A stretch of DNA of 39,863 bases from an uncultured Marivita sp. (GTDB lineage: Bacteria > Pseudomonadota > Alphaproteobacteria > Rhodobacterales > Rhodobacteraceae), in NCBI GenBank assembly GCA_947503115.1, contig CANNCS010000026.1, forward strand, positions 1 to 39,863, given 5' to 3'. Shown here one piece after another: positions 3,815 through 6,403 of the stretch; within the stretch, counting starts at the first letter, position 1; every line of letters starts with the position of its first letter. Below the pieces are notes generated by a model. That model did not search any database and was not told the origin of the DNA. It was given only the letters and a program-made list of their open reading frames with translations. The position numbers and the translations under genes are program-made.

Positions 3815-3849
3815 GTGTCAACTTTGCCAATTATGTCTAAAGTTGACAC
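3815..3849. promoter_or_regulatory. Perfect 11-bp inverted repeat between topA and scoA
   Basis: GTGTCAACTTT (3815-3825) and AAAGTTGACAC (3839-3849) are exact inverted copies with a 13-base spacer. No run of T follows in either direction, so this is a poor intrinsic terminator. A looser GC-rich hairpin (about 3774-3808) immediately before it is the better candidate for the end of topA. The right arm contains TTGACA, so bound protein would cover a possible -35 element about 85 bases before scoA. A regulator operator for the CoA-transferase operon is the favoured reading, but this is inference. Confidence 0.45.
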
Positions 3850-3934
3850 ATGAAATCACCCCGTCGCGTGGCGTTGACTCAGGGGCTGTGACACGCCAAA
3901 ACAACGTTGCGTTGAACAGCTGGAGAATATCGCG

Positions 3935-4639
3935 ATGCAGAAGGTCTATGGATCAGCAACCGAAGCGCTTGAGGGCGTTCTTACAGACGGCATGCTGATC
4001 GCGGCTGGCGGTTTTGGACTGAGCGGCATCCCCGAACTCCTGCTGAGCGCGATCCGCGATAGCGGTGTTAAGGATCTGACGTTCGCTTCGAACAACGCAG
4101 GCGTGGATGATTTCGGAATCGGTATCCTGCTGCAAACGCGTCAGGTCAGAAAAATGATCAGCTCTTACGTGGGCGAGAACGCGGAATTCATGCGCCAGTA
4201 TCTTTCCGGTGAGTTGGAGCTTGAATTCAACCCGCAAGGCACGCTTGCCGAACGGATGCGTGCCGGTGGTGCAGGCATTCCCGGGTTTTACACCAAGACA
4301 GGGGTCGGCACCGTGATTGCCGAAGGTAAGGACCACCGCGATTTCAACGGTGAGACCTACATCATGGAAGAGGGCATCTTTGCCGATCTATCCATCGTCA
4401 AGGCGTGGAAAGCGGACACCACCGGGAATGCGATTTTCCGCAAGACTGCGCGCAACTTCAACCCACCAGCTGCAATGTGCGGTAAAATCTGCATCATGGA
4501 AGTCGAAGAGATCGTCCAACCAGGCGAGCTTGACCCCGATCACATTCACTTGCCGGGCATCTATGTGAACCGCATCATTCAAGGCGCGCACGAAAAGCGC
4601 ATCGAACAACGCACAACGCGCCCGAGGCCTGCAGCCTGA
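3935..4639 (+). CDS. scoA: 3-oxoacid CoA-transferase, subunit A
   Basis: Alpha subunit of the two-gene CoA-transferase that moves CoA from succinyl-CoA (or another acyl-CoA) to acetoacetate for ketone-body or polyhydroxybutyrate use. The 234-residue protein has the CoA-transferase family I glycine-rich segment AAGGFGLSGIPE near residue 23, SNNAGVDDFGIG, and the late motif PAAMCGKICIMEVEEIVQPGEL typical of ScoA/AtoD. The ATG at 3935 has GGAGAA eight bases upstream. scoB, the beta subunit, would normally follow immediately. Here an LOV photoreceptor gene of about 1.07 kb separates them, with a 23-base gap after scoA, so all three are probably co-transcribed. The substrate could also be another short 3-oxoacid, since AtoD-type enzymes are close relatives. 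Confidence 0.93.
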   Translation: MQKVYGSATEALEGVLTDGMLIAAGGFGLSGIPELLLSAIRDSGVKDLTFASNNAGVDDFGIGILLQTRQVRKMISSYVGENAEFMRQYLSGELELEFNPQGTLAERMRAGGAGIPGFYTKTGVGTVIAEGKDHRDFNGETYIMEEGIFADLSIVKAWKADTTGNAIFRKTARNFNPPAAMCGKICIMEVEEIVQPGELDPDHIHLPGIYVNRIIQGAHEKRIEQRTTRPRPAA

Positions 4640-4662: not shown

Positions 4663-5733
4663 GTGGAACGATACGTTGAGAAACCAAAACTGACCTCGGT
4701 CCTGGACGACAGCCAGGCATTGGCTGGCTTTTCCCGGCTGAGCGTCGCGATGGTAATCACCAATCCGAATTCCGAAGATAACCCCATCGTCTACATCAAC
4801 GATGCGTTTGAACGGACGACGGGGTATCAACGGTCGCGGGTAATCGGTCGGAACTGCCGCTTTTTGCAAGGGCCGGACACCGACCCCGAGGCTGTGCAAA
4901 GGATCCGAAACGCGATCGAAGCCGGAGAAGATGTCGCGGTCGATATCCTGAATTACCGTGCCACAGGCGAAGCATTCATGAATCGCTTGTTGATCGCGCC
5001 GATCTCGGATGGGCTTGGCAAACCTGTCTATTTTCTCGGTATTCAAAAAGAACTGCGTGACGATGAACAGGACCGCGCGTCCGAAGCGACCCGTTTGCAT
5101 CTCGACACAGTTTGTTCACGGGTCAATCAGGATTTGGGCCTGATCGTCAGTTCGCTGGTCGACAGCACAGAATCCGACGACTCGCTTTCGTCCGAGGTAC
5201 ATAAGCGCCGACTTCGGATGTTGGACCAGCTTCCCCGGCGGTTGGAATGCCTGCAATTTGTCTACGAAGAGATGAAGCTTGCGGATGAGCAATGGAACCG
5301 CGACGGCATCGATCTTGGGTCACTCCTATCGCGTATCTCGCACACCATCGCGCATAACGAAGGCCGCCCCGGCGTGCGCTTTGTGTCTTTGATAGAACCG
5401 CTGGAAGTGAATCTCGACACTGCAATCCGGATGGCATTGATCACGTTTGAACTGGTGTCCAACGCGTTTCAGCACGCCTTTGATGGCCTCGATCAGGGCT
5501 ATCTCGAGCTGCGGGCCAACGGTCTTGCTGCCGGTGGATTACGTATGACCATCTCGGACGACGGTGTCGGCATTCCAAGTAAGATGTCCTTCCCCTCCGA
5601 GAACTCGGTTGGCGGACGGCTTGTGTCCTCGCTGCTTGATGGGCTGGAAGGCACGCTCAACGTGGTGCGCGGTGCCGCCGGGACCGTGATCATGATCGAT
5701 GTGCCCGTCGGGCCCACGGAAATAAAGCGATAA
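4663..5733 (+). CDS. LOV blue-light receptor with degenerate HisKA_2-type histidine kinase module
   Basis: The N-terminal LOV domain (residues about 25-135) carries the canonical flavin motif GRNCRFLQG at 62-70, with Cys65 as the photo-adduct cysteine. NYRATGEAF at 98-105 and FLGIQKEL near 124-131 complete it, so FMN binding and photochemistry are expected. Residues 147-230 align with the HisKA_2 dimerisation helices (normally HHRVKNNLQ), but the equivalent stretch is CSRVNQDLG (151-159), with Ser152 in place of the phosphoacceptor His. The HATPase is well kept: N box [11 protein letters not shown] (263-273), G1 box SDDGVGI (298-304) and a [10 protein letters not shown]2 region. It is therefore likely an ATP-binding pseudokinase or a signalling scaffold. 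The start is GTG, 23 bases after scoA; scoB begins 43 bases downstream. No response-regulator gene is adjacent. His146 and His180 lie nearby and could be alternatives, though neither is in the family position. Confidence 0.88.
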
Positions 5734-5776: not shown

Positions 5777-6403
5777 ATGGCATGGGACCGCAACCAGATG
5801 GCTGCTCGCGCGGCGCAGGAATTGCAGGATGGCATGTATGTCAATCTGGGCATTGGCATCCCGACGCTGGTGTCGAACTACATCCCCGAAGGTGTCACCG
5901 TGACGCTGCAATCCGAAAATGGGATGCTGGGCATGGGGCCATTTCCCTATGAGGGAGAAGAAGACCCCGATCTCATCAATGCGGGCAAGCAGACAATCAC
6001 CGAGCTGCCCCACACCAGCTATTTCGACAGCGCGACATCCTTCGGCATGATCCGCGGCGGCAAGATTGCGATGGCGATCCTCGGCGCGATGGAAGTGGAC
6101 GAAAAAGGCGATCTGGCGAACTGGATGATTCCGGGCAAGTTGGTCAAAGGCATGGGCGGCGCGATGGACCTGGTGGCCGGCGTGGGCCGTGTGATTGTGG
6201 TGATGGACCACACAAACAAGCATGGCGACAGCAAACTTCTTAAGGAATGCACGCTGCCGCTGACCGGCGCCGGTGTTGTGGACCGGATCATCACCAATCT
6301 GGGTGTGCTCGACGTGGTCGAAGGCGGTCTCAAGATTGTGGAAACTGCGGATGGTGTCACAGAGGACGAATTGCGCGCTGCGACGCAAGCAACCATCATC
6401 TGA
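5777..6403 (+). CDS. scoB: 3-oxoacid CoA-transferase, subunit B
   Basis: Beta subunit partner of the scoA product. It provides the catalytic glutamate that forms the glutamyl-CoA thioester: Glu47 in [11 protein letters not shown]. The 208-residue length is normal for ScoB/AtoA. Other family features are [10 protein letters not shown] near residue 23, [23 protein letters not shown], and [11 protein letters not shown]. The ATG at 5777 follows an AAAGGAAAG ribosome site. An intrinsic terminator 27 bases after the stop closes the scoA-LOV-scoB unit. The unusual point is the intervening sensor gene, since these subunits work as a tight complex and are normally adjacent or fused. Confidence 0.94.

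Follow-up and report, generated by a model that had tools for sequence, protein, structure and literature searches.

A probable ldaP ortholog encoded between the CoA-transferase genes scoA and scoB in Marivita and other Rhodobacteraceae

Introduction

LdaP of Dinoroseobacter shibae (Dshi_1135) is a 338-aa LOV protein in which Arg148 replaces the phosphoacceptor histidine (PMC10890935). According to the main text of that study, PpsR co-purified with Dshi_1135, no autophosphorylation of the protein was found, and its FMN photocycle is known from D. shibae; the authors proposed that it acts as a dark-state antirepressor of PpsR and gave it the name LdaP. In a Dshi_1135 transposon mutant 437 genes went up and 122 went down, and ScoAB is absent from the 15 enriched LdaP partners given in Table 2 of the same paper (PMC10890935). 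Apart from that study, the locus tags turned up in just one other paper, which names Dshi_1135 once, as a LOV kinase gene; LdaP is mentioned in a 2025 review.

AppA is likewise a blue-light antirepressor of PpsR, a likeness in role for which homology is not claimed, but its photosensor is BLUF, with FAD (PMC10890935). EL346 of Erythrobacter litoralis (PDB 4r3a) is a LOV histidine kinase with its phosphoacceptor, His142, in place. Here we describe a LOV gene from an uncultured Marivita sp., found in a stretch of 39,863 nucleotides (contig CANNCS010000026.1), hereafter the window, and compare it with these systems.

Results

Organization of the locus

Relocating the open reading frames of the window gave the same coordinates as the initial annotation, with a LOV gene between the two subunit genes of a 3-oxoacid CoA-transferase, all three on the + strand and separated by 23 bases (scoA/LOV gene) and 43 bases (LOV gene/scoB):

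3935..4639, + strand: scoA, 3-oxoacid CoA-transferase subunit A (TIGR02429, 234.2 bits, cut-off 128.5; PF01144)
4663..5733, + strand: ldaP-like gene, LOV and histidine-kinase-like protein without the phosphoacceptor His, 356 aa (EL346 4r3a, E 3.2e-70; LdaP clade)
5777..6403, + strand: scoB, 3-oxoacid CoA-transferase subunit B (TIGR02428, 334.3 bits, cut-off 243.55)

The LOV gene starts with GTG at 4663, and topA lies upstream of scoA in the window as it does in D. shibae. From this packing, we infer that the ldaP-like gene is co-transcribed from the scoA promoter, scoA-LOV-scoB being probably one transcription unit. Joint expression, for which selection had been suggested, is plausible: most of the gaps are very short or are overlaps, and 27 of 394 family genomes share the order.

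This recurrence in Rhodobacteraceae, whose examination had been proposed, rules out an order unique to the window strain. Thirteen of 17 Marivita genomes have scoA-LOV-scoB, as do all 9 genomes in the genus of G373. A LOV match at E 1e-30 or better was obtained in 45 of the 394 genomes, and the flanks were read for sco genes in 41 of them (G123, G166, G251 and G379 left out): 27 have scoA-LOV-scoB, 1 has scoA upstream only, and the flanks read in the other 13 are free of sco genes. Gaps around the LOV gene are mostly of a few bases or overlaps, exceptions reaching 433 bases, and topA falls within the flanks of 39 of 78 loci, which were short enough for absence to say little.

A LOV kinase with its histidine intact is present in 10 of the 17 Marivita genomes (L016-L025), with no sco gene within flanks of 1.5 kb; 9 of these 10 genomes also carry a His-less gene in scoAB.

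Relation to LdaP

The window protein and LdaP (L033) fall in one clade of 31 His-less rows (support 98/86) in a LOV-kinase tree from which the H-box columns were excluded. L033 fits the published description of LdaP, with 338 aa, Cys61, Arg148 and GRNCRFLQ at 58-65, and both published ldaP cloning primers, with their 5' tails left off, match the L033 genome exactly. The second contig of this genome agrees with D. shibae plasmid records at 100% identity across the 6000 bases compared, DFL 12 being among the best matches. Since the forward primer lies at the ORF start and the reverse primer inside scoB, ldaP itself is located between scoA and scoB; in the L033 genome, the scoB ATG comes 26 bases after the ldaP stop.

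LdaP resembles the window protein in joining a LOV domain to a kinase-like half that has lost the phosphoacceptor histidine, and its gene resembles the window gene in the order topA-scoA-ldaP-scoB and in a genome that carries PpsR. It differs in having Arg148 where the window protein has Ser152, and in that its function is shown, in the work cited, only in D. shibae.

The initial annotation knew of no described LOV protein encoded inside scoAB. LdaP had in fact already been studied, but we found its place in scoAB unmentioned: the main text of PMC10890935, supplements aside, contains neither the locus tags Dshi_1134 and Dshi_1136 nor the words 'transferase' and 'neighbor', and literature searches pairing LOV proteins with CoA-transferases gave nothing on topic among the papers listed. 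We place the gene with LdaP; its arrangement, real, conserved and mostly explained, is one that the literature covered leaves unremarked.

Loss of the phosphoacceptor histidine

The window protein matches both PAS_9 and HATPase_c above the Pfam cut-offs; the initial annotation is silent on this kinase-like C-terminal half and on its missing phosphoacceptor. EL346 is its best PDB match, with a homology spanning residues 23-350, that is the LOV, DHp-like and CA parts, but Ser152 of the window protein stands where EL346 has His142:

4729..5067, + strand: LOV domain with Cys65 in GRNCRFLQG (aa 23-135, bounds approximate)
5104..5145, + strand: degenerate H-box (aa 148-161; Ser152 at EL346 His142; Asp157 in place of the His of His-intact relatives)
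5308..5712, + strand: ATPase (CA) domain, HATPase_c, with Asn267 and DDGVG retained (aa 216-350, bounds approximate)

The Cys65 motif is thus present as first annotated. The histidine at the phosphoacceptor column is missing in 34 of 78 aligned LOV-kinase rows, where it is replaced by S, N, R, D, G, A or E. For a thinned comparison, we kept 20 rows of the main clade, without 11 Marivita rows and the outliers L040, L042 and L074, and 32 His-intact rows, without L017-L025, L175, L176 and L178. His152 occurs in none of the 20 clade rows and in all 32 His-intact rows, and position 157 is Asp in 20/20 against His in 32/32. Lys155 and Asn156 are lost in 18 and 20 of the 20 clade rows respectively, both being kept throughout the His-intact set. 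The two outlying His-less rows that are sco-embedded, L040 and L042, retain His at 157. On the ATPase side, Asn267 is retained in 19 of the 20 thinned rows (exception L046) and D299, G301 and G303 in all 20.

Compared with eight Marivita relatives, dN/dS is 0.05-0.09 for the whole LOV gene and 0.02-0.08 for the CA domain, and it is highest in the linker and H-box (0.08-0.26, six computable pairs), these ratios being rough as dS exceeds 1 in many pairs. The low values indicate that the gene is under purifying selection.

Individual rows depart from this picture. In L046, a member of the LdaP clade, the ATP-site Asn is lost together with a Gly of the second glycine motif while the LOV Cys is kept, and this protein may thus do without ATP binding. 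L074, from a Hellea MAG, has lost both the His and the ATP-site Asn in a LOV kinase outside the LdaP clade.

The best tree demands at fewest 3 changes for the loss of the histidine. When every His-less row except L074 (33 of 34) is kept in a single clade, the tree is not rejected (p-AU 0.63), which makes a single loss of the phosphoacceptor likely.

Co-occurrence with PpsR and photosynthesis genes

The genome of the window carries PpsR, and 40 kb read on the same contig hold bchL, bchH, bchB, bchN, bchG, bchP, pufC, pufM, pufL, bchZ, bchY, bchX and bchC. PpsR was called by TIGR02040 over its cut-off, a level at which none of 14 control genomes matched (8 of 14 matched below it). In G326 and G074 it was counted by E-value (3.3e-104 and 6.5e-98); elsewhere, 6.5e-98 corresponds to 328 bits, over the cut-off.

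PpsR is found in 164 of the 394 family genomes and the His-less gene in 19, of which 18 have it in scoAB (G000, G003, G051, G074, G129, G155, G164, G195, G246, G267, G280, G282, G293, G318, G326, G358, G373 and G391) and one, G203, outside scoAB. Among these 19 carriers, all but G280 have PpsR (18/19; hypergeometric p 9.5e-7, ignoring relatedness). Over all sets, sco-embedded His-less genes come from 38 distinct genomes, 36 of them with PpsR (29/31 plus 7/7 further, G373 being already counted and G429 being the same genome as L056). The two exceptions are incomplete genomes, G012 being 87% and G280 77% complete.

By comparison, PpsR is present in 3 of 15 genomes with sco-embedded His-intact genes. 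L166, with scoA upstream and no scoB within 1.9 kb downstream, is counted as not sco-embedded in this 3/15 and is kept as sco-embedded in the tree labels and change counts. The link between histidine state and PpsR loosens outside scoAB, where PpsR genomes account for 20 of the 28 His-intact rows, 9 of these 20 being Marivita second copies.

As one loss of the histidine is likely, the PpsR counts are not independent, and since the loss is compatible with a single event, the tie between the His-less gene and PpsR rests on co-retention. Tests on independent pairs gave 1 to 3 pairs and had no power, and Fisher values, which take no account of relatedness, were given no weight. PpsR evidently works without the His-less gene: of the 164 PpsR genomes sampled no more than 18 carry it, and it is absent from Marivita G008 and G011, both with PpsR.

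Separation of the LOV gene and scoAB

Marivita G013, which is 99% complete and has no PpsR match, keeps scoA and scoB at 97-98% identity to those of the window. Between them, its LOV gene is cut to a 43-codon in-frame remnant with the start joined to the end. The opposite situation is seen in L061 and G203, two PpsR-bearing genomes nested within the LdaP clade, where topA is followed by ldaP and no scoA or scoB match occurs in the flanking DNA read. Because these three genomes separate the gene and scoAB both ways, the His-less gene appears, in these few cases, to go with PpsR and not with scoAB. At two His-intact loci, L041 and L050, topA and a LOV gene likewise occur without sco, in genomes without PpsR.

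Other occupants of the scoA-scoB gap

We surveyed the gap in 113 scoA-scoB pairs matched in 120 evenly drawn family genomes. It is shorter than 60 bases in 84 pairs, in agreement with the view that the two genes normally touch, and measures 60-150 bases in 2, 150-900 in 13, 900-1600 in 6 and more than 1600 in 8. The gaps of at least 150 bases thus number 27, 6 with a LOV gene and 21 others, and all 6 gaps of 900-1600 bases hold the LOV gene. Of the 21 others, 20 were read (all but G055), and none of these gave a LOV match.

These 20 LOV-free wide gaps (L190-L209) contain a GSCFA-motif protein plus a second ORF in 6 cases, a GH9 protein in 2, a DUF1801 protein in 1, a small ORF of 64-87 aa in 10 and no ORF of at least 50 aa in 1. 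Pfam searches covered one of the GSCFA proteins and one of the second ORFs, both GH9 proteins, the DUF1801 protein and three of the small ORFs, and the latter three gave no match. Since such gaps carry unrelated genes, insertion into scoAB is not by itself a sign of ScoAB control. One of the two GH9 proteins carries RTX repeats.

Upstream region of scoA

Inspection of the DNA upstream of scoA revealed two candidate control elements:

3815..3849, no strand assigned: inverted repeat GTGTCAACTTT-N13-AAAGTTGACAC, candidate operator, upstream of scoA
3873..3879, + strand: GTTGACT, putative -35 of the operon promoter, invariant in 14/14 aligned Marivita scoA upstream regions

The exact repeat core, TGTCAACTT-N8..18-AAGTTGACA, occurs at one place in the window's own genome. 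Judged by eye, both arms are near-intact in 8 of the 14 aligned Marivita upstream regions and degraded or missing in 6. No PpsR-type site (TGT-N12-ACA) lies in the 190 bases upstream of the window scoA; such a site is found in 2 of 14 Marivita scoA upstream sequences.

Discussion

We consider it highly probable that the window gene is an ldaP ortholog, whose product would act as a dark antirepressor of PpsR, be released by blue light and do so without phosphotransfer. By homology with LdaP, the gene is best read as placing photosynthesis genes under light control. In darkness, the LOV protein with its bound FMN would bind PpsR and relieve photosynthesis genes of repression, while under blue light the Cys65-FMN adduct would form, PpsR would be released and repression would follow; phosphotransfer would not be needed at any step. 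The histidine would have been lost, probably once, in a LOV histidine kinase already located between scoA and scoB, and the ldaP-like gene would be expressed from the scoA promoter. Besides the limits of the tie with PpsR given above, two findings count against this explanation: the window protein shares 53% identity with D. shibae LdaP, and the L074 genome has no PpsR over the cut-off despite the loss of the histidine.

The place of the gene in scoAB could be that of neutral cargo, if scoA-scoB tolerates an insert and LdaP merely uses the expression of the operon. We lean slightly towards this explanation, which is compatible with the antirepressor one: gaps of at least 150 bases exist in 27 of 113 pairs, the LOV-free ones with unrelated genes, and topA-ldaP occurs without scoAB in two genomes. 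Many genera, however, retain the LOV insert, mostly overlapping or near-touching its neighbors, and selection on gene order predicts likewise.

A more doubtful alternative is dosage coupling, in which carbon supply would act through the scoA promoter on the amount of LdaP and hence on PpsR relief, so that metabolism would control the light regulator. LdaP is reported to act by binding PpsR (PMC10890935, main text), so its amount should matter; the probable single transcription unit and the inverted repeat ahead of scoA, with a core found once in its own genome, are in line with such a coupling. On the other hand, two genomes have LdaP without adjacent scoAB, unrelated genes occupy the scoA-scoB slot elsewhere, and 6 of 14 Marivita lack the repeat or have it in degraded form. 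As the boldest reading, we propose only tentatively that scoAB could serve as a metabolic dial, with ketone-body or leucine catabolism setting LdaP dosage and with carbon and blue light meeting on PpsR via one pseudo-kinase, which would have arisen at this locus by exaptation of a LOV histidine kinase. Were the scoA promoter responsive to carbon supply, this signal would reach PpsR through LdaP dosage.

The initial annotation had suggested that acetoacetate or PHB metabolism is under light- or redox-linked control. This suggestion is not borne out, because the gene falls in the LdaP clade, whose reported target is PpsR (PMC10890935, main text), because the His-less sco-embedded genes accompany PpsR and because the gene and scoAB are separated in both directions in three genomes. 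Comparisons of gene order, PpsR and the published partner list gave no sign of the LOV protein acting on ScoAB. That the protein controls CoA-transferase activity or synthesis by light, as gene order had led to propose, is very improbable, and we dropped it: most sampled scoA-scoB pairs adjoin without a LOV gene, G013 has kept scoAB and lost the LOV gene, and ScoAB is not among the enriched partners of LdaP in Table 2 (PMC10890935). That the protein is still an active kinase under light control, with a different acceptor residue and a role such as the one in the general stress response stated for EL346 (PMC10890935, main text), would agree with the low dN/dS of the CA domain and with the ATPase motifs, intact in 19 of 20 thinned rows, but it is equally improbable given that His152, Lys155, Asn156 and His157, all present in 32/32 His-intact rows, are lost in 20, 18, 20 and 20 of 20 clade rows and that the same main text reports no autophosphorylation of LdaP.

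With the window gene read as encoding an LdaP-type antirepressor of PpsR, this blue-light switch of aerobic anoxygenic photosynthesis would extend from one strain to a clade present in 19 of 394 family genomes. The signature of the main clade, His152 lost and Asp157 gained, would be hidden by a histidine-kinase annotation. The history of the locus suggests a kinase turned into a non-kinase regulator with its place unchanged. A transposon in ldaP could moreover have a polar effect on scoB, so that the expression changes published for the D. shibae mutant (437 genes up, 122 down) may mix two causes.

Elsewhere in the window, a gene at 19163-20689 matches the trimethylamine-corrinoid methyltransferase model TIGR02369 with 352 bits, under the cut-off of 525.
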